This document shows positions 15,330 through 43,941 of a stretch of DNA of 64,000 bases, one piece after another. The notes beneath the pieces are model-generated. The model searched no databases. It was not told the DNA's origin and saw only the letters and a program-made list of their open reading frames with translations. The first letter of the stretch is position 1. Every line of letters starts with the position of its first letter. Both the position numbers and the translations under genes were made by a program. The DNA is from Actinoalloteichus fjordicus (GTDB lineage Bacteria > Actinomycetota > Actinomycetes > Mycobacteriales > Pseudonocardiaceae): positions 1,240,001-1,304,000 of the forward strand of contig NZ_CP016076.1 of the NCBI RefSeq assembly GCF_001941625.1. Reading direction: 5' to 3'.

Positions 15330-16832
15330 ATGTCAGCCCCTTCTCGTCCGTCGGCGCGAGCGAGGATCGCCGAGCCGCTGAGCATCGGGGGAGTCCAGTT
15401 CGCGGACGTCACGGAGTTTCATCGATGGTTCGCCGGGGTGGCCGACCGCACGCACATGACGGTGGAGCGGCTCGGGCTGGCCGAGCTGACCGGGTGGGCG
15501 CAGGACGAGGCCACGGGCATCATCCGGCACCACAGCGGGAAGTTCTTCAGCGTCGAGAGCCTGGACGTCCGGGTCACCAGCGGCCCGGTGCCGCAGTGGT
15601 CGCAGCCGATCATCAACCAGCCCGAGGTGGGCATCCTCGGCATCCTGATCAAGGACTTCGACGGCGTGCCGCACTGCCTGATGCAGGCCAAGCACGAACC
15701 GGGCAACCACAACGGTCTCCAGCTGTCGCCGACCGTGCAGGCGACCAAGAGCAACTACACGCGAGTCCACGGCGGACGCTCGGTCCCCTACCTGGACTAC
15801 TTCCGCAACCCGGCCGCCGCCGACGTCATCGCCGACACCCGCCAGTCGGAACAGGGCTCGTGGTTCTACCGCAAACGCAATCGCAACATGATCGTCCAGG
15901 TGCCTGAGAACGGCGCTGCCGCCGACGACCTCACCCTGGAGGACGGCTTCTGCTGGCTGACCCTCGGCCAGGTCTACGAGCTGCTCAGAGTTCCCGACCT
16001 GGTGAACATGGACGCCAGGACCGTGCTGGCCTGCCTGCCGTTCGCGGGCGTCGACGTCGTCGTCTCGGACAACGCCCCGGCGGAGCAGACGGCCTGCCTG
16101 ACCTCGGCCGTCGGGGCGAGCACCGACTTCGAGTCGGCCTTGGCGCGGTCTCGGGTGGCCGAGCGCGGCCTGCACACGACCGGTGACGTGTTGAGCTGGA
16201 TCACCGACACGCGCATCCGCACCGATCTGCACGCCGAGCGGGGTCCGCTGGCCGAGCTACGCGGATGGCAGCACGACGGTGCCAGGATCTTCCATGAGAC
16301 GGGCCGGTTCTTCGACGTCATCGGGGTCGGCGTCGACGCGGGCGGCCGGGAGATCGCGAGCTGGACTCAGCCGATGATCGAGCAGATCGGCACCGGGGTG
16401 GTCGCGTTCCTGGTGAAGCCGATCGACGGGGTGCTGCACGTGCTGATGCACGCGCGCACCGAACCCGGATACACCGATGTGACGGAGCTGGCGCCCACGG
16501 TGCAGTGCGTGCCGCAGAACTACGACGTGCTGCCCGCCGCCGCCCGCCCGCCGTTCCTCGACGAGGTCCTCGACGCGGCACCGGAGAGGATCAGGTTCGA
16601 CACGATCCTCTCCGAGGAAGGCGGACGCTTCTTCGGCGCCCGCAACCGCTACCTCGTGGTGGAGACCGACCTCGAGGCCCTGCCGGCGCAGGGTGACTAT
16701 CGGTGGCTCACCCTGCACCAGCTCGCCGAGTTGATGCGGCACAGCTTCTATCTCAACGTGCAGGCACGCAGCCTGGTCGTGTGCCTGCGGAGTCTGGCTA
16801 CAGCATCTCCAGGACCTCGCGGAGCGTACTGA
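15330..16832 (+). CDS. NDP-hexose 2,3-dehydratase (EvaA/TylX3-like)
   Basis: Protein of 500 residues built of two homologous halves: [24 protein letters not shown] resembles the later [24 protein letters not shown]. Each half carries [11 protein letters not shown]- or [11 protein letters not shown]-like and QLSPTVQ- or ELAPTVQ-like motifs, as in tandem-repeat NDP-hexose 2,3-dehydratases. The enzyme removes the C2 hydroxyl of a dTDP-4-keto-6-deoxyhexose to give the 3,4-diketo intermediate, committing the pathway to 2-deoxysugars. The 3' end overlaps the convergent aminotransferase by 35 bases. Confidence 0.93.
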
Positions 16833-17907
16833 TCACCTCGTCCTGCACCTTCTGCGACAGCGAGGGATACATCGGCAGCGAGAAGATCTCGCCCGCCAGC
16901 TCCTCGGTGACCGGCAGTGCGCCGCGCTCGTAGCCGAGGTGGGCGAAGCCGGTCATGGTGTGCACCGGCCAGGGGTAGCTGATGTTGAGGTGGATGTCGC
17001 GTTCCTTCAGCCGCGCGATGATGTCGTCGCGTCGCGGGTGCCGGACCACGTAGACGTAGTAGACGTGCTCGTTGCCCGCCGCCACCGAGGGCAGCACCAG
17101 GTCGGTGTCGGCCAGGCCCTCGGCGTAGCGCTCGGCCACCGCCCGCCGTCGGGCGACGTAGTCGTCCAGCCTGGGCAGCTTGCGGCGCAGGATCTCGGCG
17201 TGCACCTCGTCCAGCCTGCTGTTGCTGCCGGGGGTCTCGACGACGTAGTAGACGTCGTCCATGCCGTAGTACCGAGCGCGCCGCAGATTGCGGTCGACGA
17301 TCGCATCCGAGGTGACGGCCGCTCCGCCGTCGCCGTAGGCGCCGAGGACCTTGGTGGGATAGAAGGAGAACGCGGCCGCCTTGCCCATGGTCCCGGCGAG
17401 CCGTCCGTGGTGGCGGGCGCCGTGGGCCTGCGCGCAGTCCTCCAGGATCACCAGCCCGTGCTCGGCGGCGATGCGCTCCAGCGGGGCCATGTCGACGCAC
17501 TGGCCGTAGAGATGGACGGGCAGCAGACACCGGGTGCGCGGGGTGATCGCCGCCGCCACCTGCTCGACGTCCATGAGGAAGTCGTCGCGTCGGACGTCGA
17601 CGAAGACCGGAACGGCGCCGACGGCGTCGATCGCGACCACGGTCGGCGCCGCGGTGTTGGACACGGTGATGACCTCGTCGCCGGGGCCGACGCCCAATGC
17701 CTGGAGCGCGAGGCGGACCGCGTTGGTCCCGTTGTCGAGGCTGACGCAGTGTTCGACGCCGTGGTAGGCGGCGAACTCCGCCTCGAAGCCCCGCACACTG
17801 GCGCCGAGGACCAGTTGACCGGAGCCGAACACCGTCTCGACGGCATCGAGTATCTCGGCGCGCTCGTTCTCGTATTCCGGTAGATAATCCCACACTCGAG
17901 TCGTCAT
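16798..17907 (-). CDS. DegT/DnrJ/EryC1-family NDP-sugar 3-aminotransferase (EvaB-like)
   Basis: PLP-dependent sugar aminotransferase of 369 residues. [11 protein letters not shown] holds the PLP-contacting Asp, and [16 protein letters not shown] holds the Schiff-base Lys. The C-terminal [13 protein letters not shown] matches the DegT family. Sequence features resemble C3 aminotransferases acting on 3-keto-2-deoxy sugars. It would install the 3-amino group after the 2,3-dehydratase. It is transcribed on the minus strand, tail-to-tail with the dehydratase gene, while the glycosyltransferase diverges from its start. Confidence 0.9.
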
Positions 17908-18433
17908 GGTGGCCCCTTTCCTGTTATTCGCAGGGAACATAATGGGCGCCGGAAAACCCGAGCAACCCCTAGCCGTCCTCGGCCGGCGGTCGGCCCCAGA
18001 CCTGGTCGATTCCGCTTGTGTGGGCCGCGTCGGCGGGATAGCGTCCGCGCCCTTCGAAACAGGGAGCTCGTCGGGACCAGGGTGGACATCTGAGCTGGTG
18101 ACGGTCCCGTGGCTGCGGGTGGGCCACCCTTGATCAGGAGATGTGAGCGCCGTCACCAATGGCCGCCGGTGGTTCGGCATTCGATTTCTCCAACGGCGTC
18201 CTTCGAATCTGATCTAGGGGTGTCCACCGTCGGATCTCGTCATTTAGCGTGACACTCGTCGACGTCGAGGCGGTTCGGCATCCGAAGAAATCGGTCAGTG
18301 CGGGCGGTCGGCTGCTGCGAAGCCTGCGACGGCCCGGTGCGCGTCGTGCGGACACCAGGACGAGGCCGCGTATGTCGGTCGTCGCGGGCACCAGAGGTCC
18401 GGAGCGTGATGCCCGGAGAACGGAGTGATCGAG
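17908..18433. promoter_or_regulatory. Divergent promoter region of aminotransferase and glycosyltransferase genes
   Basis: About 525 bases with AT-richer patches and no gene. GGTTCGGCAT occurs at 18171-18180 and again about 100 bases later. TCGATTT (18181) and TCGAATC (18203) lie 22 bases apart, two helical turns, a spacing compatible with SARP direct repeats. A SARP gene lies 1.2 kb downstream. The binding assignment is speculative. Confidence 0.35.
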
Positions 18434-19627
18434 ATGGGGCAGCACTTCCTGTTCATGAGCCACCCGGACCACGGACACGTGCTCCCGAACCTCGCCGTGG
18501 TGACCGCCCTGGTCGAGAGAGGCCACCGCGTCACCTATCTGACAGGCGAGACGATGGTGGACCTCGTGACGGAGGCGGGCGCCACCGCACTGGTCTACGA
18601 CTCCCGCTATCGGCAGGCCAACTTCACCGACGTCGCCTACGACCCGCTCTACCTGATGACGCTGCTGCTCAGCGAGAGCGCCGCGATGCTGGATCGGGCG
18701 GGTGACCGGCTGGTCGACGACCGGCCGGACGCCATCGCCTACGACATCTCCATGCTCTACGCGGGCCGGATCCTCGCCAGGAAGTGGAGCATCCCGGCCG
18801 TACAGCTCATCCCGATGTTCGCCTCCAACGGCAATTACTCCTACATCAACTCGATCTACAACTCCGACGGCGCCGAGCAGTCCATGCCCGACTGGGTGGG
18901 CGAGCAGCTCGCCAGGATCGCCGCGCTGATGGACACCCACGGGATCGAGGGTTCGCCGCAGGAACTGTGGTGGGAGGTCCCCGACTTCAGCGTGGTGAAC
19001 ATTCCGCAGTCCTTCCAGATCGAGGGCGACACCTTCGACGAGCGCTTCGCCTTCGTCGGCCCCTGCCTGGGGCAGCGGGCCTTCTTCGGCGAGTGGAGCC
19101 CGCCCTCGAGCGGCCTGCCGGTGGTGCTGATCTCCTTCGGCGCCGTCTTCAACGAGCATGCCGACTTCTTCCGCGAGTGCGTGCGAGCCTTCACCGGGGT
19201 GCCCTGGCATGCGGTGATCACCGTGGCGGGCGGGATGGACCCGGCGGAACTGGGACCGCTGCCGCCCAACGTCGAGGTGCACCGCTGGGTCCCGCACGTC
19301 GCGGTCCTCGAGCACGCCGAGGTCGCCGTCACCCACGGCGGCATGGGCACGGTGATGGAGGCCCTGCACGCAGGCACCCCGATGGTCGTCGTCCCGACCT
19401 CCTCCATCGACGGCGTGACCGCGAACCGGCTGGCGGAGCTGAGCCTCGGCCGCACCATGCAGCCCGAGGACGTCACGGCCGACCGGCTGATCACGGCCGT
19501 GCTCGACGTCGCGGCCGACGAGTCGATCCGACGCAGCACGCAGCAGATGCGCGAGCAGATCCGCGCGGCGGGCGGAGCGCCCCGGGCGGCGGACGAGATC
19601 GAGAAGTACCTGGCACGGACGGTCTGA
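18434..19627 (+). CDS. MGT-family glycosyltransferase (macrolide type)
   Basis: GT-B glycosyltransferase of 397 residues. The N-terminal acceptor half opens with FLFMSHPDHGHVLPNLAVV, including the catalytic-type His. The C-terminal donor half has VLISFGAVFNE and the signature VTHGGMGTVMEALHAGTPMVV, with TSSIDGVTANRLAELSLG after it. ATG 18434 is preferred because CGGAG lies at workable spacing. It is the only glycosyltransferase in the window, so a monoglycosylated product is likely. It should transfer the amino-C-methyl deoxysugar encoded around it. Its stop overlaps the SARP start. Confidence 0.92.
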   Translation: MGQHFLFMSHPDHGHVLPNLAVVTALVERGHRVTYLTGETMVDLVTEAGATALVYDSRYRQANFTDVAYDPLYLMTLLLSESAAMLDRAGDRLVDDRPDAIAYDISMLYAGRILARKWSIPAVQLIPMFASNGNYSYINSIYNSDGAEQSMPDWVGEQLARIAALMDTHGIEGSPQELWWEVPDFSVVNIPQSFQIEGDTFDERFAFVGPCLGQRAFFGEWSPPSSGLPVVLISFGAVFNEHADFFRECVRAFTGVPWHAVITVAGGMDPAELGPLPPNVEVHRWVPHVAVLEHAEVAVTHGGMGTVMEALHAGTPMVVVPTSSIDGVTANRLAELSLGRTMQPEDVTADRLITAVLDVAADESIRRSTQQMREQIRAAGGAPRAADEIEKYLARTV

Positions 19628-24944: not shown

Positions 24945-25245
24945 GCGGCTGAGGATCGCCGCTGCGATCTCGCTGGTCAATCGCCGAGTATCGAAACGAG
25001 AAGACCGTGATAACCGGCCCGGCTAGCGTTCGGTCTCAAGCGAGGCGGACATGACGCTTGAGAACTACGAGCCTGCGAACGCGCTGGTCGAGGGCATCGC
25101 TGCCCCTGCACGACCGGGGTCCGCGCCGCCAGACGCGTTCGAGGTGAATCCGGTGCGGTGCATCCCATCGACGGAGCCACGGTGAGGACGACGACGCCCC
25201 CGCCTGTCCGTGAATGTGACGAACCGCCGACGGCTGGAGACGAGG
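24945..25245. promoter_or_regulatory. Divergent promoter region of the polyketide operon
   Basis: About 300 bases between the divergent FAD hydroxylase and ketoreductase genes. No gene is seen. The promoter of the 12-kb core operon must lie here, but I cannot assign -10 and -35 elements with confidence. Confidence 0.4.
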
Positions 25246-26031: not shown

Positions 26032-26334
26032 ATGACCATCGACGAGTTGCGGGCGCGTGCAGGCGAGCGGAAGCAGACCTGTGCCCAGATCAAGAAGATG
26101 ATCGTGTCGCGGCTGGACCTGCCGATCGAGCCAGAGTGGATCAGCGACGACCAGCCGCTGTTCGGCCGGGGCCTCGAACTGGACAGCCTCGACGTCCTGG
26201 AGCTCTACGTCGCCATCGAGGCCGAGTTCGGTGTGGCGCTCTACGACAGCGACATGTCCGTGTTCGGCTCGGTCTCCAGGCTCGCCGACTCCGTCAACCC
26301 TGCGCTGCGGACGGCGCAGGCAGCCGTGGCATGA
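26032..26334 (+). CDS. Acyl carrier protein
   Basis: Carrier protein of 100 residues. The phosphopantetheine site is Ser52 in GLELDSLDVLELYVAIEAEF; the surrounding acidic helix is the usual recognition surface. An N-terminal extension of about 15 residues precedes helix 1. A good ribosome site (AAGGAGA) lies upstream. It is the only free ACP in the window and should carry the chain built by the KS-CLF fusion. Its stop overlaps the dehydratase start. Confidence 0.93.
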   Translation: MTIDELRARAGERKQTCAQIKKMIVSRLDLPIEPEWISDDQPLFGRGLELDSLDVLELYVAIEAEFGVALYDSDMSVFGSVSRLADSVNPALRTAQAAVA

Positions 26335-26882: not shown

Positions 26883-27947
26883 ATGGAATCCGCACTCACC
26901 CCGGTTCATCCTGAGGGAACCGTCTACGGCCAGGTGCTGGAGGCCTCCGTCCCGCTGCGCTACACGACGACCGAGGCCGAGTACGAGGCGATCCGCGGCC
27001 GGGCCGCCGTGCTGGACCTCGGCGGGTCGCGGCTCGTGCAGGTGCGCGGCTCCTCGGCAGGCGACTTCCTCCAGCGCGTGCTGGCCCGCGACGTCGAGTA
27101 CCTGACGTCCGAGCGCTCCACCACGAGCCTGATCCTCGATGAGACGGGCGCGATCGTCGATCAGGTCGTGGTCTGGGGCCGAGAGGACGGCGCGATCCTG
27201 GAGAGCTCCTGCGGCGCGGGCACTCGGCTGATCGAGTACCTCCGGTCGCAGAACGCGGACGAGGTCGAGATCGTCGACCGCTCCGACGAGCTGACCGTCA
27301 TCGCCGTCGAGGGCCCGTACTCCTGGGGCGTCATCGGCAGGCTGATCGACAGCGAGCTGGCCGCGCTTCCGCTGGACAGCGTCGTGGACACCCAGTGGGA
27401 CGGCGCCGACATCCTGTTCGGCCGCACCGGTTCCAGCGGCGAGTACGGCTACAAGGTCGTCGCCGCGCACGAGACCGCCAAGAAGCTGTGGACGCAGGCC
27501 TGTGAGCACGCGGTCCCCGCCGGGCAGGACGTGCTGGAGCTGGCGATGCTGGAGGTCCGCCAGCCGGTGGTCCGCCACGAGGCGCCTGCGGGCACCGGGG
27601 TCCTGGAGGTCGGCGCGGGCTGGCTCGTGGACATCACCAAGGAGTCCTTCGTCGGGCGGGACGCCGTGCTCGCGGCCTTCGCCGAGCAGAGCGGCCCCCG
27701 GACCATCGGCTTCCGGGGCGGCGACGCCGTTCCCGCGCCGGGCACGCGGGTGCTGGCCGCCGGGCAGGACATCGGCGAGGTCGTGCACGCCGTGTACAGC
27801 GTCGGCCTCGGGGCCGCGCTCGGGCTCGCCAGGGTCGAGTCCGATCTCGCGGCCGCCGGGCTGGACCTGACGGCGGGCGACGCGGAGATCGAGACGCTGA
27901 CCAGCCCGTACGTCTCGCCCAAGAGCTGGAGCATTCCGATCGTCTGA
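26883..27947 (+). CDS. GcvT-like folate-binding protein (aminomethyltransferase family)
   Basis: Protein of 354 residues in the GcvT/DmdA/YgfZ superfamily. Family features include YEAIRGRAAVLDLGGSRLVQV near the start, FLQRVLARDVEYL, SGEYGYKVVAA, and LVDITKESFVGRDAVL. The C-terminal domain (PGTRVLAAGQDIGEVV, then YVSPKSWSIPIV) is also conserved. Known relatives transfer one-carbon units to or from tetrahydrofolate; YgfZ-type relatives have other roles. No other glycine-cleavage gene is nearby and it sits between the dehydratase and KS genes of one operon, so a pathway-specific role (demethylation, C1 transfer or a non-folate reaction) is likely but unknown. Confidence 0.8.
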   Translation: MESALTPVHPEGTVYGQVLEASVPLRYTTTEAEYEAIRGRAAVLDLGGSRLVQVRGSSAGDFLQRVLARDVEYLTSERSTTSLILDETGAIVDQVVVWGREDGAILESSCGAGTRLIEYLRSQNADEVEIVDRSDELTVIAVEGPYSWGVIGRLIDSELAALPLDSVVDTQWDGADILFGRTGSSGEYGYKVVAAHETAKKLWTQACEHAVPAGQDVLELAMLEVRQPVVRHEAPAGTGVLEVGAGWLVDITKESFVGRDAVLAAFAEQSGPRTIGFRGGDAVPAPGTRVLAAGQDIGEVVHAVYSVGLGAALGLARVESDLAAAGLDLTAGDAEIETLTSPYVSPKSWSIPIV

Positions 27948-27976: not shown

Positions 27977-30304
27977 ATGGCGCTGCGACCAGTCGTCATC
28001 ACCGGACTCGGTGTCATCTGTGCCATCGGCCGTGATCCGGTCGAGTTCTGGGCGCGGCTGACCTCCGGGGACAGCGGCATCACGCCGATCTCGGACGGGG
28101 CCTACGCGGCTTTCGACGCCCGCTTCGCCGGGCAGGTCCCCACCGAGTGGATCACTGATCAACTCCCGGCGGGCGACGCCGACCTCGATCGGACCGCTCA
28201 ACTGGCCCTGGTCGCGGCGCGGCAGGCCGTCGCGGGCGCCGGGCTGGCGTCCGACGTCGTGGACGGCGACCGCTTCGGCATCGTGCTCGGCAAGTGTCAG
28301 GCGACGCCGGACGCCGAGGGCCGATACCAGCCGATGCACCGCACCGGCGACGTGGTCGCGGGCCGACTCGGCGCTCGCGGACCGCGCATCCTGGTGTCGA
28401 CCGCCTGTGCGGCAGGCGGCAACGCGGTGGGCCTGGCCAGGGACAAGATCCTCACCGGGGAGGCCGACGTCGTGCTGGCGGGCGGCGTCGACCCCCTGCT
28501 GTTCGGCACCTACGCCGGGTTCGCCGGTCTTCAGGCGCTGAGCACCGGGCCGTGCAGGCCCTACAGCACCTCCGACGGCCTGAACCTCGGCGAGGGCGCC
28601 GCCTTCCTGGTGGTCGAGCCGCTGGATCGGGTGCTGGCTCGGGGCGGGACGCCGCTGGCCGAGGTCGCGGGCTACGGGCTCTCGGCCGACGCCTACCACG
28701 CGACCGCTCCCGATCCCACCGGTCGCGGCGGTGCCAGCGCGATGCGTCGGGCGTTCGCGGACGCGGGCATGACGGCCGAGGACGTCAGCTACGTCTCCGG
28801 GCACGGCACCGGCACGCCCGCCAATGACTCGATGGAGATCAAGGTCATGCGCACCGTGTTCGGCGATCGTGCCGGACAGGTGCCGACCAGCAGCATCAAG
28901 TCGTTCCTCGGGCACACCCTCGGTGCGGCGGGCGCCGTGGAGGCGGTGGCCAGCGTGCTCGCGCTGCGGCACGGGACGGCCCCGCCCACCATCGGCTTCG
29001 ACGAGGCTCCGGAGAACGACGCGACCGAGAACGCGGCAGCCGACCCGGCGACCGCGCCCGCCGAGTCGGGCCCGCCGCCGTTGGACTTCGTGCCGAACAC
29101 CGCGCGGTCCTTCCCGATCGACACGGTGGTCTCCAACAACTACGCGTTCGGCGGGAACAACGTCTCGCTGGTGCTCACCACCCCGCGTGGCGAACGGGAG
29201 TACGAGGAGCTGCCGCGAACGCCGGTCGTCATCAGCGGTCTCGGACCGGTGAGCGGACTGGGCATCGGCGTCGCGGACCTCGCCGAGGCGATCGCCACCG
29301 GCAGACAGGCCGCCGGGCAGGTCCCGTCGCTGACCGGGCGGACCTTCGCGCCGCGTTCCCTGTGGCGGCACATGAACGACCTGTCCCGCCTCGCCATCGC
29401 CGCCTCGCGGCTGGCCTGGGAGGACGCCGCCCTGAAGCTGCCGAGGGCTGCCATGGAGGACATCGGCGTGATCTTCGCGACCGCGGCGGGCTCCGTGGAG
29501 AGCACCGGCGGGTTCGACGAGAGCGTCGCGGCCAACCCGAACAAGCCCTCGGTGCTGAGCTTCTCCAACGTCGTGCTCAACGCCACGGGCGGCGCGGTCT
29601 GCCAGACCCTCGGTCTGCGCGGACCCACCACCACCATCTGCAACGGCGGCGCCTCCGCCTCGATCGCACTGGACTGCGCGGTCGAGACGATCCGGTCGGG
29701 CAAGGCCGAGGTCGTGCTGGTCGTGGCCGCCGACGAGACGGCGGAGCCTGCCCCCGAGGCACCCGGCACCACGCCCTACGGCCGGGATCACGACGGCACG
29801 ATTCCCGGCTCCGGCGCGGTGGCCTTCGTGGTGGAGTCCGCCGAACACTGCCGGGCCCGAGGCGGCAGGCCCTACGCCGAGATCCTCGGCACCCGCCACG
29901 CGGCGAGTGACGGAGCCGACGGCGACGGCGAGCTGATCAGGCGCAGCCTCGACGGTCTGTCCGTCGCCGACGTCGGTCTGGTGGTCGGCGCAGGCACCGG
30001 CGGCAGCGCCGACGCCGACGAGGCGGCCGTGCTGTTCGACGCCGTTCCCGACGGGCTGCTCACCAGCCCGGTCGGCCAGACCGGAGACTGCCAGGCCGCG
30101 TCCGGCGCGATGAACCTCGCGGTGGCCGCCATGGCCGTCCGCGACGGCGTCGCACCCGCGCTGGTCGGGCTCACCAGCCCTCGATTCGGCGCCATGGACC
30201 GCTATGTGACCAAGCCGGAGATGGCGGGCGAGGTGACCTCGGCGCTCGCGCTGACCTCGGCGCCTGGTTCGCTGCGGGGCACGATCCTGCTGGGGAAGCC
30301 GTGA
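27977..30304 (+). CDS. Fused ketosynthase-chain length factor (KS-CLF) protein
   Basis: Single polypeptide of 775 residues with two thiolase-fold halves. Residues 1-405 form an active KS: Cys144 in VSTACAAGGNA, His276 in SGHGTGTPAN, His313 in FLGHTLGAAG. A linker rich in Ala/Pro/Glu follows. Residues 414-775 form a second KS-like half that begins VVISGLGPVSGLG. There the active Cys is replaced (ICNGGASASIAL aligns Gly at its place) and both His motifs are lost (VGAGTGGSADADEAA and VGQTGDCQAASG), as expected for a chain length factor. It should catalyse iterative malonyl condensation. Confidence 0.88.
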   Translation: MALRPVVITGLGVICAIGRDPVEFWARLTSGDSGITPISDGAYAAFDARFAGQVPTEWITDQLPAGDADLDRTAQLALVAARQAVAGAGLASDVVDGDRFGIVLGKCQATPDAEGRYQPMHRTGDVVAGRLGARGPRILVSTACAAGGNAVGLARDKILTGEADVVLAGGVDPLLFGTYAGFAGLQALSTGPCRPYSTSDGLNLGEGAAFLVVEPLDRVLARGGTPLAEVAGYGLSADAYHATAPDPTGRGGASAMRRAFADAGMTAEDVSYVSGHGTGTPANDSMEIKVMRTVFGDRAGQVPTSSIKSFLGHTLGAAGAVEAVASVLALRHGTAPPTIGFDEAPENDATENAAADPATAPAESGPPPLDFVPNTARSFPIDTVVSNNYAFGGNNVSLVLTTPRGEREYEELPRTPVVISGLGPVSGLGIGVADLAEAIATGRQAAGQVPSLTGRTFAPRSLWRHMNDLSRLAIAASRLAWEDAALKLPRAAMEDIGVIFATAAGSVESTGGFDESVAANPNKPSVLSFSNVVLNATGGAVCQTLGLRGPTTTICNGGASASIALDCAVETIRSGKAEVVLVVAADETAEPAPEAPGTTPYGRDHDGTIPGSGAVAFVVESAEHCRARGGRPYAEILGTRHAASDGADGDGELIRRSLDGLSVADVGLVVGAGTGGSADADEAAVLFDAVPDGLLTSPVGQTGDCQAASGAMNLAVAAMAVRDGVAPALVGLTSPRFGAMDRYVTKPEMAGEVTSALALTSAPGSLRGTILLGKP

Positions 30305-33164: not shown

Positions 33165-34067
33165 ATGCTCGCGTTTCTCTTTCCCGGTCAGGGCACGCTC
33201 CGCGTGGGAATGGGGGCGCGGCTGCGGGCCAGGAAGGTCGCGGCCGACGTGTTCGCCAGGGCCGACGAACTCCTGCCCGCGCCGGTCTCGGCCCTCTGCG
33301 CGTCCGGGCCGACGAGCGCGCTGATCGCGACCGAGAACGCCCAGCCCGCCGTCACGGTGTGCAATCTGGCGGCCCTGGCGGTGCTGGCGGAGGAGGGCCA
33401 CGAGCCCGAGATCGTCGCCGGGCACAGCGTCGGGGAGATCAGCGCGCTGCACGCGGCCGGGGTGCTCGATCTGGCGGGCACGCTCCGGCTGGTCTCCACG
33501 CGGGCGCGGCTGATGGCCGAGTGCGGCGGCCTCGGCGGGATGACCGCCGTGCGGGGGATGCAGCAGGCGGAGGTGGAGGCGCTGGTCGCCGAGGCGTCCA
33601 CTCCCGACGAACCGCTGGTGGTGGGGCTGGAGAACGCGCAGGAGAACGTGGTCGTGTCGGGCTCCCGCGCGGCGATCGAGCGATTCGTGACCGCAGTGGA
33701 CAGCCCGGGGAAGGTCCGCCCGCTGGAGGTCAGCGACGCCTTCCACTCGCCGCTGATGGCACCCGTCGCGCAGCGGTGGGCCGATGCGGTGCGCGCGGAG
33801 CCGATGGCCGCGCCGCGCATCCCGGTGATCCCCAATGCGACCGCCGAACCGACCACCGACCTCGACGTCGTGCGGGACTGTCTGATCGAGCAGCTCACCC
33901 GCCGGGTGCGGTGGGCGGAGACGATGACCAGGATCGAGGGCGCCACCTGCGTCGAGGTCGGTGACAGCAAGACCCTCACCGCCCTGCTGCGCGGCACCCC
34001 GACCCGCTGCGTCAGCATGGCCGACCCGTCGGCGGCACGCAGGCTCGTCAAGGCCGGGGCCGCATGA
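33165..34067 (+). CDS. Malonyl-CoA:ACP acyltransferase-like protein
   Basis: Acyltransferase of 300 residues. FLFPGQGTLRVGMG opens the protein; the nucleophile is Ser88 in GHSVGEISAL, and the catalytic His is in DAFHSPLMAP. The NVVVSGSRAAIE motif also fits. The Arg expected for malonate binding appears in STRARLMAE. A dedicated acyltransferase is uncommon in aromatic type II clusters, which borrow FabD, but occurs in reducing type II systems. GTG-free ATG start after CAGGAGG; the stop overlaps the first AcpS-like gene. Confidence 0.9.
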   Translation: MLAFLFPGQGTLRVGMGARLRARKVAADVFARADELLPAPVSALCASGPTSALIATENAQPAVTVCNLAALAVLAEEGHEPEIVAGHSVGEISALHAAGVLDLAGTLRLVSTRARLMAECGGLGGMTAVRGMQQAEVEALVAEASTPDEPLVVGLENAQENVVVSGSRAAIERFVTAVDSPGKVRPLEVSDAFHSPLMAPVAQRWADAVRAEPMAAPRIPVIPNATAEPTTDLDVVRDCLIEQLTRRVRWAETMTRIEGATCVEVGDSKTLTALLRGTPTRCVSMADPSAARRLVKAGAA

Positions 34068-34609
34068 ACCGGGCGGGCTCGGCCGTCGTCCGTTTCGCGG
34101 GGCTGACCGAGCCGCAGCAGCTCCTCGTGGGCCTGTCGGCTCGACGGCCCGCTGATACAGAGCCCGTCGCACCGGACGGCGCGGATGCCGGACGGGGTGC
34201 GGCGAGTCCGTCCGACCGGGCACCCGGCCGGGGCGAGCCGGTGTCGATCGACGAGGTGTTCACCCGCGCCGAGCGGCTGCGTTCCGGCGCGGGCCGCACC
34301 CTGGAGCACTGGGCGGGCAGGCTGGCGGCGAAGTACGCGGTGCTGCGCCTGCTGGCCGTGGCGGAGACGGCAGAGCACCTCGGTCAGGCGGAGGTGCTTC
34401 CGCAGCCGTCGCCGATGTGCGCGGCGACCGCCGCGTGCCTGCACGGCCATCCGCCGAGGGTCCGGCTCAGCGGCGATCTCGCCCGCCGAGCGGCGGAGCG
34501 CGGCGGAGAGCAGATCCGGGTGTCGATCAGCCACACCCGCGACACGGCGCTGTCGGTGGCCATCGCCTCGGCGCCCTTACCGGAAGACCACCATTGCGAG
34601 GCGGCGTGA
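34064..34609 (+). CDS. AcpS-like protein lacking metal-binding motifs
   Basis: Protein of 181 residues. From about 60 on it follows holo-ACP synthase: VFTRAERLRSGAGRTLEHWA, RLAAKYAVLRLL, PPRVRLSGDLARRAAE, and VSISHTRDTALSVAIAS at the end. The N-terminal GVDIVE-type Asp motif is absent, replaced by a 60-residue low-complexity lead. In the K-E-A motif the Mg-binding Glu is Tyr91. The SHT motif (Ser156-His157-Thr158) is kept. Alone it is probably inactive. A second AcpS-like gene at 36264 has the opposite pattern. TTA occurs at 34577-34579. Confidence 0.75.
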   Translation: MNRAGSAVVRFAGLTEPQQLLVGLSARRPADTEPVAPDGADAGRGAASPSDRAPGRGEPVSIDEVFTRAERLRSGAGRTLEHWAGRLAAKYAVLRLLAVAETAEHLGQAEVLPQPSPMCAATAACLHGHPPRVRLSGDLARRAAERGGEQIRVSISHTRDTALSVAIASAPLPEDHHCEAA

Positions 34610-35472
34610 ACGTGGAACTCATCGAGATCGTTCGAGCGCACCTGGCGGCCTGGCAGACCGGTGACGCCTCGGCCGTCGCGGACTCCGTCGCCTCGTTCAG
34701 CGACCCGGACACCGAGGAGCCGATCGCCGGCGACGCGCTTCTCGCCCACGCCGAGCAGGTGCTCGCGCGGTTCGCCGGACTGCGGATCGAGATCGAGCAG
34801 CTGGTCCCCTCGGCGGAGGTCGTCCTGGTCTCCTGGCGGCTCACCGCCGATCACCGCTCCTCATACCTCGGGATGCCCGCCACCGGCGGCGCCGTCGCGG
34901 TGCGCGGCACCGACGTGGTCACCGCCGACGCCGACGGGGCGCACGTGGTGCGGACCTTCGACCGGCTCGCCGTGGCCGCCGCCCTGGGCTTCGAGGCTCG
35001 GTTCACCCCTGCCGCCGACGGTGATCGGGAGTTCGGCGTCAGCTCCCGGACCTCGGTGGGGCGCACGACGCCGCCGGGCGTGCTCGCCCTGACCTGGCTG
35101 GAGATCCGCGACGACGCGGAGGCCGCCGACGTCGATCTGCTGAGCGTGGAGGTCGTCAAGTCGCTGCGGGCCTCCCAGGGCTTCCTGGGCGCCTCGACCT
35201 TCGACATCGGCCGCCGGAAGTTCACCCTGACGGCCTTCGACCGGGCGGAGTCGGTGCGGGCCGTGCACGCCAGACCGCATCAACGGGCGATGCGCCGGTT
35301 CTTCAAGAGCGGACTCTGCACGCGGGCGCTGACCAGCATCTGGGAGCCCACCGCGATCCGGGAGTACGCGCGGTGCCCGGAGTGCGACTCGGTCGTCACG
35401 ATGCACGGCGTCGAGCCCGGTGCCGCCGCGTGCGACTGCGGATGGGCCCCGGAGCCAGAACCCCTACTGTGA
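34606..35472 (+). CDS. SnoaL-like/ABM-like fusion with C-terminal Cys cluster
   Basis: Protein of 288 residues in three parts. Residues 1-130 resemble SnoaL-type polyketide cyclase (IVRAHLAAWQTGDASAVAD, later YLGMPATGGAVAVRGTDVV, then VRTFDRLAVAAALGF). Residues 150-250 look like a dimeric alpha/beta barrel of the antibiotic biosynthesis monooxygenase type (LALTWLEIRDDAE, VEVVKSLRASQGFLGASTF). The tail has Cys257, Cys260, Cys276 and Cys278 in CPEC and CDCG, a likely zinc site. Cyclase and cofactor-free oxygenase functions may be linked. I do not know this architecture; the second-domain call is tentative. Confidence 0.6.
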   Translation: MNVELIEIVRAHLAAWQTGDASAVADSVASFSDPDTEEPIAGDALLAHAEQVLARFAGLRIEIEQLVPSAEVVLVSWRLTADHRSSYLGMPATGGAVAVRGTDVVTADADGAHVVRTFDRLAVAAALGFEARFTPAADGDREFGVSSRTSVGRTTPPGVLALTWLEIRDDAEAADVDLLSVEVVKSLRASQGFLGASTFDIGRRKFTLTAFDRAESVRAVHARPHQRAMRRFFKSGLCTRALTSIWEPTAIREYARCPECDSVVTMHGVEPGAAACDCGWAPEPEPLL

Positions 35473-35484
35473 CTGGAGCGCTTC

Positions 35485-36267
35485 ATGACGTTGTTCACCG
35501 CAGACCACCGGCTTGACGGCGGTGCCGGGCCTACCGCAGTGTTCGTCTCCGCCCTGTTCGCCGGTGGCTGGATCTGGGATCACCCGTATCAGGCGCTGTC
35601 GGACGCGGGCTGGTCGGTCCTGCGCACCAATCAGCCCGTCTGCGCGGTGGACAGCAAGGTCGCGGGGTCGATCGAGCGGCTCGGCGACGCGATGCTGGCG
35701 GTCTGTGACGCGGCAGGCGTCGAGGACCTCGTGGTCTGCGCCAACTCGCTGGGCGGGCTCGTCGCGATCGATCTGGCCCTGCGGTTCCCCGACCGGGTGC
35801 GCGGCATCGTGGTCAGCGGTGCGCCCGGCCTGACCGCCGACCCGGACGTAGGACTCAGCATGGACCGTCGAGCCGGGGTCAAGCCCAGCGGACCCGAGTT
35901 CGAGGCGCGGATGATGGCGGCGTTGTTCCATTCCGGACGCCACTTCAGCGACGAGCAGCTCGCGGAGACGGGAACGCTGCTGGAGCAGCCGAACTCGATG
36001 CTGAGCATGGCCCGCAGCCTTCGTGCGACGCGGTCCTATCCGGTGCAGGCCGCGTTGGAGACGGTGCGCTGCCCGTCGCTGTACCTATGGGGCAGACACG
36101 ATCGGATGACGCCGGTCGACGCCTGGGTCGACGTCGTCGAGGCCCATCCCACCAGCGACATGGTCCTCATCGAGGACTGCGGTCATATCCCGATGCTCGA
36201 ACGCGGAGATGAGTATTCTTCTCATCTAGCGCGGTTCATGACAAAGTTCGCGAGCGTGCCTGCGTGA
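35485..36267 (+). CDS. Alpha/beta hydrolase (serine esterase/thioesterase-like)
   Basis: Hydrolase of 260 residues. The nucleophile is Ser88 in VVCANSLGGLVAI; the acid is in LYLWGRHDRMTP and the His in EDCGHIPMLE, giving a complete triad. It starts with VFVSALFAGGWIWD in place of the usual HG oxyanion motif. In a PKS operon with no other thioesterase, chain release or lactone/ester handling is the natural guess. The stop overlaps the second AcpS-like gene. Confidence 0.82.
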   Translation: MTLFTADHRLDGGAGPTAVFVSALFAGGWIWDHPYQALSDAGWSVLRTNQPVCAVDSKVAGSIERLGDAMLAVCDAAGVEDLVVCANSLGGLVAIDLALRFPDRVRGIVVSGAPGLTADPDVGLSMDRRAGVKPSGPEFEARMMAALFHSGRHFSDEQLAETGTLLEQPNSMLSMARSLRATRSYPVQAALETVRCPSLYLWGRHDRMTPVDAWVDVVEAHPTSDMVLIEDCGHIPMLERGDEYSSHLARFMTKFASVPA

Positions 36268-36818
36268 CGACGGTGGCGGTACTGCTCGGGGTGGACATAG
36301 TGGAGAGAGGCCGACTGAGACGCATGCTCTCAGACCTCGGCGACGTCTACCTCCGACAGGTCGCCACGCCGTCCGAGCGAAAGCTGCACACGGGCGCCGC
36401 CGACGCCGCCCCCGACTTCGCCGTCAAGGAATGCCTGATCAAGGCGGTCGGCGGCCGTCCGGACGGATTCAGCTGGCATGACTTCGAACGAGCGTCTGCC
36501 GTCGGGTCCGTCCCGCCGCCTGCCCCTGCGGTCCCCGCGCAGGCCGAGGAGATCGACGACGAGGTCACTGCGCTGCTCGACGAGGCGGCGGCAGGCCTCG
36601 GCGCGGCCACCGGGTTCGCACTGACCACCACCGACACCTACGCCGTGCGCGGCGCGAGCCGCACCGCCGCACTGGCGCGGCTGGCACCCGGTCAGGGCGG
36701 GTTGAGCGTCACCGGCGCCGCCCGCTGGGGCCTGGACGAGAGCGTGCTCGTCGCACTGGCCGTGGTGACGACTTCCGCGAAGACGATGACCAAGAAGGGA
36801 GCACCAGGATGTCCTTAG
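36264..36818 (+). CDS. AcpS-like protein lacking the C-terminal SHT motif
   Basis: Protein of 184 residues. The N-terminus matches holo-ACP synthase: LLGVDIVERGRL places the Mg-binding Asp11 and Glu14, and DFAVKECLIKAVGGRPDGFS has Lys55-Glu56 of the K-E-A motif. The C-terminal half is divergent, with an Ala/Pro/Glu insertion at about 75-100, and no Ser-His-Thr motif. This is the reverse of the gene at 34064, which keeps SHT but lacks the metal ligands. Either a heteromeric phosphopantetheinyl transferase or a repurposed fold is possible. Confidence 0.68.
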   Translation: MTTVAVLLGVDIVERGRLRRMLSDLGDVYLRQVATPSERKLHTGAADAAPDFAVKECLIKAVGGRPDGFSWHDFERASAVGSVPPPAPAVPAQAEEIDDEVTALLDEAAAGLGAATGFALTTTDTYAVRGASRTAALARLAPGQGGLSVTGAARWGLDESVLVALAVVTTSAKTMTKKGAPGCP

Positions 36819-37852
36819 CTCAAGCCCCTGCTGAGACGGTCGTGAGACCGGGCGAATCCATCCAGCAAGCGCTCGACAGCGCGGGGGCGGGCGCCACCGT
36901 CCGACTCACCGAGGGTACCTACGCCGAACATCTGTTGATCAGACACAGCGGGGTGACACTCGTCGGCGACGGCGCCGAGCGGACCGTCCTGATTCCCGGC
37001 GGGACGGCTCCCGACGGGATACCCGAGCTGACGGATGCCACCACGGAGGTCTCCAGCGGCATCGTCATCCACGCCGAGGGCGTCACCGGCATCACGCTGC
37101 GCGGCCTGACCGTGCAGGGCTTCAGCGGCGCGGGCGTGTACGCGCACACCACCTCCGACCTCGACTTCGAGGACCTCGTGGTGCGGGACAACGAACTCTG
37201 GGGCGTCTACGTCCGCGAGTCCGGCGGCGTGCGCGTGCTGCGCTGCACCGCGTCCGGCAGCCGATACGGCGGCATCGCCCTCAGCTTCTGCTCCCGCTCC
37301 GACGCGCTGATCGAGGACAACGACACCTTCGACAACGCCTTCGGGATCTTCGTCGACAACGCCTCGTTCGCCCAGGTACGACGCAACCGCAGTCACGGCA
37401 ACGCCGCAGGCGTCCTGGTGCTCAACCAGGCCTACCCCGGTGAGCCGCCCGGTGGCGCGACCGACAACCTCGTAGCCGACAACGACCTGTATGACAACGG
37501 CCTGTCGGCAGGCGTCGAGCCCGAGGGGCTCGGCGCGGCGGGTCCGCCGATCTCCGGGGTCGGCGTCGGTCTGATCGGCGCCTGTCGCACCACGGTCGTC
37601 GGCAACCGCATCGTCGATCACCGACCCAGCGGGCCCTCGGTCATCGGCGGCGCGGTGGCGATGGCCTCCTCCACGGAGTGGGGCGGCGGCGAGGTCGCGG
37701 ACAACAAGGTGCTGTGGAACCGCATCACCGGCAACGAGCCGCTGGACGTCGACGTCAGTGACGGCCTCGAACGCCAGTACTTCGAGAACAACGTCGTGGA
37801 CCGCACCTCGCCCGAGCACATCGAGGGCTGTTCCTCAGGAGGCGCCCGATGA
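36809..37852 (+). CDS. Right-handed parallel beta-helix repeat protein
   Basis: Protein of 347 residues with short repeats of about 22 residues: ITLRGLTVQGFSGAGVYAHT, LDFEDLVVRDNELWGVYVRE, VLRCTASGSRYGGIALS, and so on. This is the NosD/pectate-lyase-like beta-helix. The opening VVRPGESIQQALDSAGAGAT is the family cap. No signal peptide is seen, so it is cytoplasmic, unusual for carbohydrate-active beta-helices. The start overlaps the AcpS-like gene and the third codon is TTA. It may be a cyclase, isomerase or epimerase acting on the polyketide or sugar; no catalytic residues can be assigned. Confidence 0.8.
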   Translation: MSLAQAPAETVVRPGESIQQALDSAGAGATVRLTEGTYAEHLLIRHSGVTLVGDGAERTVLIPGGTAPDGIPELTDATTEVSSGIVIHAEGVTGITLRGLTVQGFSGAGVYAHTTSDLDFEDLVVRDNELWGVYVRESGGVRVLRCTASGSRYGGIALSFCSRSDALIEDNDTFDNAFGIFVDNASFAQVRRNRSHGNAAGVLVLNQAYPGEPPGGATDNLVADNDLYDNGLSAGVEPEGLGAAGPPISGVGVGLIGACRTTVVGNRIVDHRPSGPSVIGGAVAMASSTEWGGGEVADNKVLWNRITGNEPLDVDVSDGLERQYFENNVVDRTSPEHIEGCSSGGAR

Positions 37853-41413: not shown

Positions 41414-42481
41414 TCAGGACCGCGGCGAGAGGGACTCCTCGTGCGCGGTCTCCTCGATCAGAGCAGCCACCGTGTGCTTCAGCGCCGCGCGCAGCTCGAC
41501 TCCCGCCTGCCAGCCCGTCACCGTCCGGAATCGGGTCGGGTCGGCGATGATGCTGCGAAAGTCCATCTCCGTCGCGTGCACGGGGGCGGGCACCGACACG
41601 ACGTCCACCGCAGGGCGACCGGTCTGCTCGGCGACCACCGCAGCGATTGCGGTGAACAGTGCGCGGACGGTCGTGCCTCGTCCGGTCCCGATCAGCCAGT
41701 GCGTGCCCGAGAGCGCGTCGGCATGATCGACGCAGGCCAGGACGGCCTCGGCGGCGTCCCGGACGTGGAGCAGGTCCCGTTCGGTCTCGCCGCCGTCCCA
41801 CACGGTCAGCGGCTCGCCCGCCAACGCGCGTCGAGCCATCGCCGTCACCACGCCCCGGTCGGCGGCGTGCGGGGCGGCGCCGAACACCGTGGGCAGGCGC
41901 AGCGACACGCCTCGGAGCACGCCATCGGCGGTGGCGTCCGTCAACACCTTCTCGGCGGCCGACTTCTGCCGGTCGTAGACCGTCGCAGGCTCGTCCACCT
42001 CGGTGCCGTCGACGAGACCCGAGCCGCCTGCACCGAGCTGTGAGGTCGAGCCCGGCACCACGACGATCGGCGGCGGTCCCGGTCGCGGGTTCGACCGGAG
42101 GATGCGTACGAGATCACGGGTCACTCCGACGTTGGTCCGCTCGCTGTGCGGGTCCGCCTCGGCGGCCCGCCACGTCCCGCCGCCCGTGTAGAGCAGCAGA
42201 TTGAGCACGACGTCCGCGTCCGCCACTGCCTCGGCCAACGCCCCGGTGTCGGTGAGATCGGCGGTGATCACCTCCGCGTCCACGGCTTCCGGCGGCACCG
42301 GGCTCGGCCCCCTGGCCAGCAGCCGCAGCCGGGCCGGGCGGCGGGCCAGCGCCGCCGCCACGGCCGAGCCGATGAAGCCGGAGGCGCCCAGCACCGCGAT
42401 GCGCCGAGCCGGGTTCGCCGTCTCGGTGCCGTCGATGTCGTGCCGTGCTGCCGTGTCGACGAGTGCTGCCGTGTCGACCAT
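41414..42481 (-). CDS. NDP-4-keto-deoxyhexose reductase (EvaE-like, extended SDR)
   Basis: Extended short-chain dehydrogenase of 355 residues. The Rossmann motif is RRIAVLGASGFIGSAVAAAL. VVVVPGSTSQLGAGG and VYDRQKSAAEKVLTD hold the catalytic Ser/Thr and the YxxxK pair. GERDLLHVRDAAEAV-like text (ETERDLLHVRDAAEAVLACV) is typical of sugar 4-ketoreductases. ATG 42481 was chosen; a TTG at 42505 would overlap the methyltransferase stop. It should set the C4 stereochemistry of the aminosugar in the last step before transfer. Confidence 0.87.
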   Translation of the reverse strand: MVDTAALVDTAARHDIDGTETANPARRIAVLGASGFIGSAVAAALARRPARLRLLARGPSPVPPEAVDAEVITADLTDTGALAEAVADADVVLNLLLYTGGGTWRAAEADPHSERTNVGVTRDLVRILRSNPRPGPPPIVVVPGSTSQLGAGGSGLVDGTEVDEPATVYDRQKSAAEKVLTDATADGVLRGVSLRLPTVFGAAPHAADRGVVTAMARRALAGEPLTVWDGGETERDLLHVRDAAEAVLACVDHADALSGTHWLIGTGRGTTVRALFTAIAAVVAEQTGRPAVDVVSVPAPVHATEMDFRSIIADPTRFRTVTGWQAGVELRAALKHTVAALIEETAHEESLSPRS

Positions 42482-42497
42482 GGAGCCGCCCGCGTGC

Positions 42498-43724
42498 TCA
42501 GACAAGGTGCACGGTCGGGACGTAGAGGATCCACTGTCCGCCGGAGTCGCGGAACGCCTGTTCCTTGGCCATGATCTCCTCGGCGTGGTTCCAGGCGAAC
42601 AACAGCGCGTACTGCGGGTAGTCCTCGTGGAAGGCCGACGGCGGCCGAACCGGCAGGTGCGCCCCCGGCGTCAGCTTCCCCTGCTTGGCGGGCGTCGTGT
42701 CGCAGACGAAGGAGACCAGGTCCGGCCCGATGCCGAGGTAGTTGGTCACCGTCGCGCTCTTCGCCGTCGCCCCGTAGCCGACGACCCGGTTGCCCTTGTC
42801 CCGCTGCTCCCGCAGGAACGTGAGCAGGTCGTCCCGGTTCTTCTCGACCCGAGTCCGGAAGTCGGTCAGCGTCGCGAGATCGGTCAGCTTCGCGGCCTCC
42901 TCCGCCGCGAGCAGTTCGGTCACCGCCGAGGTCCGCTGCCGTGCTCCCGGCCGGGCCAGGGTGTAGCGGACCTCGCCGCCGTGGACGGCGAGCCGCTCGA
43001 CGTCGACGAGTTCGAGGCCGTGCCGCCGGGCCATCTCGTCGACCGAGCGGGCGGTGAAGAAGTAGAAGTGCTCGTCGTAGATCTGATCGAAGGAGGCCCG
43101 CTCGACGATCTCGGCGAAGTAGGGGTCTTCGAAGACGAAGACGCCGTTCGGCGCGAGCAGCGTCGTCACACCCCGGAGGATCGACTCCATGTAGGGGATG
43201 TGACACAGGGTGTTGGCGGCGTAGATGACGTCCGCAGGCCCGTCCGAGGTACGGATGGACGTGGCGGTCGACTCCTCGAAGAAGGCCTTGCGCACCCGGA
43301 TGCCCTTGGTGGCGGCCAGTTCGGCGACTCCGCCGGACGGTTCGACGCCGAGGTGCCGGACGCCTGCCGTGGCGATGGTGTGCAGCATCGTCCCGTCATT
43401 GGAGCCGAGTTCCACGATGAACGGGTCGTCGCCGGTCAGCTCGGTGTTCAGGAAACGCTGCGCAAGGCCTTCGAAGTGCGCCCGCATCACGGTCGATCCC
43501 GAGGACAGGTATGGGTAGTCCTCGTGGAACATCTTCTCCCTGGGGACCTCCTCCATGAGCTGCACCATGTCGCACGTCTGGCAGATCCCCACGGCGAGCC
43601 GGAAGAAGAACTCCTGTGCCTCCTCGCCCGGCGTCACGAACGCGTCAGATGCCGGCTGCTTCCCGAAGTCGATGAACTCGTTGACCGTATCTCCGCAGAT
43701 CCGGCACGACGATGTGGTTGACAT
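42498..43724 (-). CDS. NDP-hexose C3-methyltransferase (EvaC/TylCIII-like)
   Basis: SAM-dependent C-methyltransferase of 408 residues. The N-terminal zinc domain has CRICGDTVNEFIDFG and ICQTCDMVQLME. The SAM site is IVELGSNDGTMLHTIATAG, and YDEHFYFFTARSVDEMARRHG follows. The C-terminal nucleotide-binding-like domain includes VVGYGATAKSATVTNYLGI. It adds the branch methyl at C3 of the keto sugar. The start is fixed by AAGGAG six bases before ATG 43724. Together with the amino-transferase this argues for a vancosamine-like sugar. Confidence 0.93.
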   Translation of the reverse strand: MSTTSSCRICGDTVNEFIDFGKQPASDAFVTPGEEAQEFFFRLAVGICQTCDMVQLMEEVPREKMFHEDYPYLSSGSTVMRAHFEGLAQRFLNTELTGDDPFIVELGSNDGTMLHTIATAGVRHLGVEPSGGVAELAATKGIRVRKAFFEESTATSIRTSDGPADVIYAANTLCHIPYMESILRGVTTLLAPNGVFVFEDPYFAEIVERASFDQIYDEHFYFFTARSVDEMARRHGLELVDVERLAVHGGEVRYTLARPGARQRTSAVTELLAAEEAAKLTDLATLTDFRTRVEKNRDDLLTFLREQRDKGNRVVGYGATAKSATVTNYLGIGPDLVSFVCDTTPAKQGKLTPGAHLPVRPPSAFHEDYPQYALLFAWNHAEEIMAKEQAFRDSGGQWILYVPTVHLV

Positions 43725-43941
43725 ATGACACTCCTTGTAGTCCCTGATGCTGTCTCGGGCGTCCGATCCCGAGGCGAGTACGCAGGTGCGGGGGCATGGT
43801 CGGCGGCGGTGACCGATGTCGATCGATCCGGTGTGCCGCCGGAGTTCGGGGAGGGGCCCGGTTGTGCAGGCCCGCGCCTCGTGTCGGTGTCCGATCTGCG
43901 TCACTCGACGCCGGGTCGTCCGGCGCGAGCGCGATCAGACG

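Follow-up and report, generated by a model that had tools for sequence, protein, structure and literature searches.

Two incomplete AcpS-fold proteins encoded in an actinomycete polyketide operon may together form one phosphopantetheinyl transferase

The window analyzed here, a stretch of 64,000 nucleotides of Actinoalloteichus fjordicus DNA (contig NZ_CP016076.1, positions 1,240,001 to 1,304,000 of the forward strand), contains a plus-strand polyketide operon with two genes for proteins of the fold of AcpS, the holo-ACP synthase (ACP, acyl carrier protein). We refer to their products as AcpA (34064-34609; 181 amino acids [aa]) and AcpB (36264-36818; 184 aa); these and all features described below lie on the plus strand. 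The original prediction, made from the sequence, held that each protein lacks motifs kept by the other and that two half-competent proteins could form one heteromeric transferase. Do AcpA and AcpB work as one enzyme? Our analysis indicates that they probably do, as a two-polypeptide phosphopantetheinyl transferase (PPTase) dedicated to the ACP of a type II-like cluster with a fused ketosynthase and chain length factor (KS-CLF). AcpA is the proposed coenzyme A (CoA)-binding, N-lobe-like half, and AcpB the proposed Mg-binding, catalytic and ACP-docking, C-lobe-like half. This reading draws directly on the homology of the two proteins, their complementary loss of residues, the tight linkage of their genes and the purifying selection on both, from which we infer assembly, activity, stoichiometry and substrate.

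We compared 30 clusters, namely those of the window and of loci L027, L028, L030 and L035-L060, with L061 and L062 excluded. Both genes were kept in all 30, always as two separate genes, and no natural A-B fusion was found among these clusters, to which the search for one was confined. Residues 62-168 of AcpA and 8-80 of AcpB matched NCBIfam AcpS models with 30.8 and 38.5 bits, respectively, both far under the curated cut-offs. AcpB matched Pfam ACPS with 25.6 bits, just above the cut-off of 25; AcpA had no Pfam match over cut-off and only a weak one to 4PPT_N (E 0.27). Profiles built from five relatives of each protein both found solved AcpS structures.

AlphaFold2 models, for which the input was 15 of the 30 sequences, had predicted local distance difference test (pLDDT) values of 81.9 for AcpA and 87.3 for AcpB. 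The best Protein Data Bank matches were AcpS structures for AcpB, and both AcpS structures and the PPTase domains of fungal fatty acid synthases (FAS) for AcpA. The first strand is formed in the AcpA model (model residues 3-9, protein residues 4-10), so AcpA has the whole AcpS fold, with the GVDIVE motif of that strand turned into GSAxVxF. No acidic residue was found at AcpA protein positions 1-11 in any of the 30 sequences, so the first-strand Asp is missing. The linker insert of AcpA (34136-34243, residues ~25-60) varies widely in length within the genus, and the total length of the protein is 152 aa in G001, 181 in the window and 231 in G002.

Residue positions of AcpS were assigned by alignment and are given in what we take to be the numbering of the Bacillus subtilis enzyme. 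On the CoA side, AcpA has an Arg equivalent to Arg53 (Arg86, 34319-34321), which is Arg in 29 of 30 clusters and Leu in the order-level relative G093, and the motif SISHT (34523-34537), in which SxSH is invariant and the next residue is Thr in 26 clusters, Ala in three and Gly in one. The position of the Mg-binding Glu58 is occupied by Tyr91 (34334-34336, in AAKYA) and varies among Tyr (14), Arg (12), His (2), Leu (1) and Gln (1), never being Glu; that of Lys62 is Arg in 29 clusters and Ala in one. AcpB shows the converse set. The Mg-binding Asp8 equivalent in GVDIVE (Asp11, 36294-36296), the ACP-docking Arg14 equivalent (Arg17, 36312-36314) and the equivalents of Lys57, Glu58 and Lys62 around VKEC (Lys55-Glu56 and Lys60, 36426-36443) are each present in 30 of 30. 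The Arg53 position of AcpB (36417-36419; Asp in the window) is Thr in 16, Ala in 10, Asp in two, Leu in one and Ser in one, and thus Arg in none, and the region of Ser-His-Thr (SHT) holds Arg-Trp-Gly (RWG; 36723-36731) in 29 of 30; in the remaining one, L058, AcpB is frame-shifted. The motifs that the original prediction had assigned to or missed in each protein were therefore all recovered.

Our control consisted of 44 distinct other AcpS sequences, which are not a random sample, being mostly weak matches from our AcpA and AcpB searches. Asp8, Glu58 and Lys62 were present in all 44, Arg53 in 41, Arg14 in 39 and the His in 36. Asp, Glu, Arg53 and His occurred together in 33 of the 44, and the remaining 11 were without Arg53 or His but never without Asp or Glu. 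Neither AcpA nor AcpB carries Asp8, Glu58, Arg53 and SxxH in one chain. We regard the losses of Asp and Glu in AcpA and of Arg53 in AcpB as the informative ones; the last is an additional complementary loss that the original prediction had not pointed out. Since the pattern held in 30 clusters while the control AcpS kept these residues, it is not due to chance.

The two genes were also tightly linked. A forward scan with the AcpB alignment of a collection holding one genome per species (84,980 species according to the description of the tool) gave 28 AcpB loci, in 26 of which AcpA preceded AcpB by about 2 kb with the order of genes unchanged. All 26 paired loci are from actinomycetes (Nonomuraea, Herbidospora, Lentzea, Saccharothrix, Prauserella, Microbispora, Actinokineospora, Acrocarpospora and one record named Nocardia). 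At the other two, L061 and L062, the match to AcpB covered fewer than 80 residues at 30 and 41% identity, and neither AcpA nor polyketide genes were found around them. In the reverse search, 20 of 390 family genomes were positive for AcpA, and each of the 20 also carried AcpB, sharing contig and strand with AcpA and no more than ~2.4 kb away, although in G696 it is frame-shifted; AcpB was searched for in these 20 genomes and in G093, and the forward and reverse lists share species. The smaller cluster of G093 retained the ketoreductase (KR), ACP, GcvT, KS-CLF, nitroreductase, acyltransferase, AcpA, hydrolase and AcpB genes. In the phylum-wide sample, where scoring, as in the family scan, was limited to the ~10 top first-look candidates of each genome and absence is not strict, the pair occurred in one of 396 genomes, that of the window itself (219 bits for AcpA and 211 bits for AcpB); the 12 further AcpA and 99 further AcpB matches at E <= 1e-8 reached at most 43 and 50 bits, respectively. 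Among 100 relatives the pair was found in five, and the weak matches to AcpA in seven others and to AcpB in two all read as canonical AcpS.

One gene order thus recurred in 26 of 28 loci, and homologous clusters with only one of the two genes, which the original prediction had named as counting against it, did not appear among these loci or the 20 genomes. Because co-occurrence is tight and the loss and retention of residues are complementary, a two-polypeptide transferase is the simplest account. Linkage and the complementarity at Arg53, Lys62 and Arg14 support the proposal that the two half-competent proteins would assemble into one active heteromeric enzyme.

Both genes are under purifying selection. 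In seven species pairs, in which eight genes were compared by the Nei-Gojobori method, the ratio of nonsynonymous to synonymous substitution rates (dN/dS) was 0.09-0.35 for AcpA and 0.18-0.59 for AcpB; that of the ACP gene was the lowest of the eight in six pairs and the third lowest in the seventh. These values bear on the possibility that AcpA and AcpB are decaying AcpS duplicates without function. AcpB has diverged faster than its neighbors (mean distance 0.450 versus 0.251-0.338 for six other genes) and is frame-shifted at two loci, as decay would predict; however, dN/dS stayed below 0.6 in all seven pairs, the motifs are invariant and every one of the 30 clusters retained both genes, which makes decay highly improbable.

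The active site of AcpS is located between subunits. In a 2024 study, an inhibitor was docked with Lys63 of chain A on one side and Phe41, Arg46, Phe50, Arg54 and Lys87 of chain B on the other; alanine mutants of Arg54/53 and Lys63/62 were reported to be inactive, and a His108 mutant to show a modest loss of activity (PMC11436758). In another paper, helix 1 of one subunit is the docking site of the carrier protein, its Arg15 pairing with the Asp preceding the carrier serine (PMC9338922). By alignment, AcpB holds the chain-A kind of residues (Lys62 and the helix-1 Arg14) and AcpA the chain-B kind (Arg53), and this match to the chain-by-chain supply in AcpS points to one shared site. In the proposed mechanism, AcpA would provide the CoA-binding face, with the Arg53 equivalent and Ser-x-Ser-His placed on the nucleotide and phosphates, and AcpB would supply Asp and Glu for Mg binding, a Lys for catalysis and, in helix 1, the Arg for ACP docking. 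Since a complete active site would exist only at the A/B interface, the most probable functional form is a 1:1 heterodimer laid out like the lobes of Sfp, which seems likelier than a mixed trimer.

The same residues allow a different division of labor, in which AcpB alone forms a homo-oligomeric transferase with other basic residues, such as the Arg of RWG, replacing Arg53 and His, and AcpA acts as a non-catalytic stabilizer or as a partner for ACP specificity. The invariance of Asp, Glu and both Lys in AcpB agrees with this, as does the presence of RWG in all but one of the clusters, and the His is dispensable in AcpS, to judge from the eight control sequences without it and the His108 mutant (PMC11436758). 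However, AcpA keeps the very CoA-side residues that AcpB has lost (Arg in 29 of 30, SxSH in all), which a scaffold would not need, and the same study indicates that AcpS cannot do without the Arg53 equivalent. We therefore consider it unlikely that AcpB acts alone.

How does a shared site compare with known PPTases? Three classes have been described (PMC4103896, PMC2148441), each of which, in our own reading, puts the complete residue set in one kind of chain. With group I, AcpS (PF01648), the pair shares fold, sequence descent and active-site residues; AcpS, however, is one protein that forms a homotrimer with all residues in each chain, whereas the pair divides the residues and both of its members carry inserts. 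Group III, the fungal FAS domain, gave the top structural matches of AcpA, but the pair is not fused to a megasynthase. Like group II (Sfp, EntD and the human enzyme), the pair has a CoA half with Arg and Ser-His and an Mg half with Asp, Glu and Lys, a division that held in every cluster except that of G093, where Arg53 is found in neither protein. In the human PPTase, Arg47, Arg86, Ser110 and His111 bind CoA, Asp129 and Glu181 bind Mg, Lys185 is a catalyst and Glu133 forms the hinge (PMC2148441), which puts Asp129 near the lobe junction. From residue order and homology, we read the CoA group as belonging to the N-lobe and the Mg group to the C-lobe.

Unlike Sfp, which is one polypeptide, AcpA and AcpB are encoded by genes with one or two others between them, and their sequences are nearer to AcpS than to Sfp. 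AcpS was the nearest partner of both in profile comparisons, with scores of 95.9 (98.7%) for AcpA and 85.9 (98.2%) for AcpB. Next came the N-lobes of Sfp-type enzymes for AcpA (42.4 versus 16.2 for C-lobes) and the C-lobes for AcpB (36.3 versus 14.4 for N-lobes). An origin by splitting of an Sfp-type gene was rejected, since the match of either half to AcpS is much stronger than that to the Sfp lobes. The pair is AcpS by descent and Sfp-like in its proposed working, fitting neither definition in full.

Two further elements recall Sfp-type enzymes. AcpA contains a C-x5-C-x2-[GS]-H-P-P element (34418-34456) in all 30 clusters, which is an insertion relative to AcpS (a gap in the AcpS profile alignment) and possibly a metal site. 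A similar C-x1/2-CG-xx-HG-x-P occurs in seven of 19 Sfp-type N-lobes, and GR[WY], resembling the RW of AcpB, precedes the last strand in seven of 19 C-lobes. With subtype labels that are our own working assumption, the former are seven of seven SCO6673-like enzymes (0 of 12 others) and the latter seven of eight EntD-like enzymes (0 of 11 others). Because the two sevens are different subtypes, these elements, which may reflect convergence or exchange, are suggestive only.

The invariant Cys-Cys-His-Pro-Pro element is new relative to AcpS, raising the possibility that both proteins have been repurposed, with the AcpS fold now serving the pathway in a different way, such as by binding CoA thioesters or acyl-ACP, while transferases of the host load the ACP. 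The same genome encodes one AcpS and three Sfp-type enzymes outside the cluster, which could do so. Repurposing, however, does not predict that nearly every catalytic and docking residue survives once across the pair, and the ACP of the window, the presumed substrate (26032-26334; PF00550, 35.4 bits), has an intact DSL serine motif (Ser52 in ELDSL, 26185-26187). On this evidence a repurposed pair is quite unlikely.

Several observations nevertheless weigh against a two-polypeptide transferase. With four other transferases in the host, the ACP could be loaded without the pair. The loss of SHT from AcpB, used at first as a key argument, is weakened by the eight of 44 control AcpS that also lack the His, although their share may be overstated, since all eight stem from the AcpB search of the phylum-wide sample; of the complementary missing motifs in the original prediction, the loss of Asp and Glu from AcpA stands, whereas that of His or SHT alone means little. 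Arg53 is absent from AcpA and AcpB alike in the divergent pair of G093. AcpB had the highest dN/dS among the eight genes in three of the seven species pairs, yet always below 1. It is frame-shifted in two genomes (L058; G696, loci L156 and L159) in which AcpA is still open, through either sequencing or assembly error or decay or recent loss. The partial correlation of the AcpA and AcpB distance matrices, with the other genes held constant, was 0.42 over 28 of the 30 loci (L038 and L058 dropped); this was the best value for AcpB but ranked fourth among 21 gene pairs, and as a sign of coupled evolution it is suggestive only. Finally, the profiles of AcpA and AcpB failed to recognize each other (3% probability), so the two need not be sister duplicates and a simple duplication is unsupported.

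Precedent for a heterodimer of active and inactive paralogues comes from the KS/CLF of type II polyketide synthases, as seen in the accessible part of a large survey of cluster heterodimers by AlphaFold3 (PMC13311259), although this is another enzyme family and KS and CLF share one chain in the cluster of the window. That part of the survey contains nothing on PPTases. According to a speculation in a 2014 paper, a heteromeric complex might be formed by two PPTases that act on the antimycin cluster (PMC3909215). Among the matches listed in the open-access literature, no split, heteromeric or inactive-partner PPTase is described, in keeping with the earlier statement that no split-motif AcpS pair was known. 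On balance, we favor the view that the two-polypeptide transferase represents a fourth PPTase architecture, an obligate heterodimer of two incomplete AcpS-derived proteins that reached the lobe division of Sfp independently and serves a cluster found in many actinomycete genera.

The operon starts with the KR gene at 25210, followed by the genes for the ACP, a FabZ-like dehydratase, a GcvT-like protein, KS-CLF, a nitroreductase-family protein, a flavin adenine dinucleotide enzyme, an alpha/beta hydrolase (32264), the malonyl transferase, AcpA, a SnoaL-like protein, a second alpha/beta hydrolase (35485-36267; PF00561), AcpB and a beta-helix protein; the next three genes, as read from their sequences, probably encode an ATP-binding cassette exporter. 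The malonyl transferase (33165-34067) matched the fabD model with 191.7 bits, short of the cut-off of 260.9. In all 30 clusters its gene shares 4 bases with that of AcpA, and a 4-base overlap also joins the genes for the hydrolase and AcpB in 27 of 30, gene starts having been assigned by script in both cases; these overlaps suggest coupled translation. The core synthase, KS-CLF (27977-30304; 775 aa), comprises two ketosynthase stretches and is encoded by a single long reading frame in 29 of 30 clusters, L038 stopping at a contig edge. By reading, its first half has the ketosynthase Cys/His motifs, and the active-site Cys is apparently missing from the second. The GcvT/aminomethyltransferase-like protein of the folate-binding family (26883-27947) is an operon member in 29 of 30 clusters, again with L038 ending at the contig edge, and the right-handed beta-helix protein (36809-37852) follows AcpB in 29 of 30, G093 being the exception.

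On the flanks of the operon (16798-18180, 18425-19627 and 41414-43904) are genes for a DegT aminotransferase, an EryCIII-like glycosyltransferase, an NAD-dependent epimerase and a C-methyltransferase, which suggest that the product carries a modified sugar. The ACP, dehydratase and KS-CLF resemble those of cispentacin-type type II polyketide synthase clusters in matching the NCBIfam models AmcB, AmcE, AmcF and AmcG, all with scores under the curated cut-offs. No paper on the present cluster was found in the open-access literature.

Because AcpA exceeds no Pfam cut-off and AcpB barely exceeds one, routine annotation can miss such a pair. If AcpA and AcpB do form one enzyme, it would be a two-part transferase with mix-and-match halves and a single intended carrier protein. 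In our best reading, the pair in effect re-runs the origin of Sfp with the fusion omitted. The heteromeric form would then offer a natural proxy for the intermediate that figures in the long-standing question of how Sfp arose from AcpS by duplication, and a stage between the homo-oligomeric AcpS and the fused Sfp would be preserved as separate genes.

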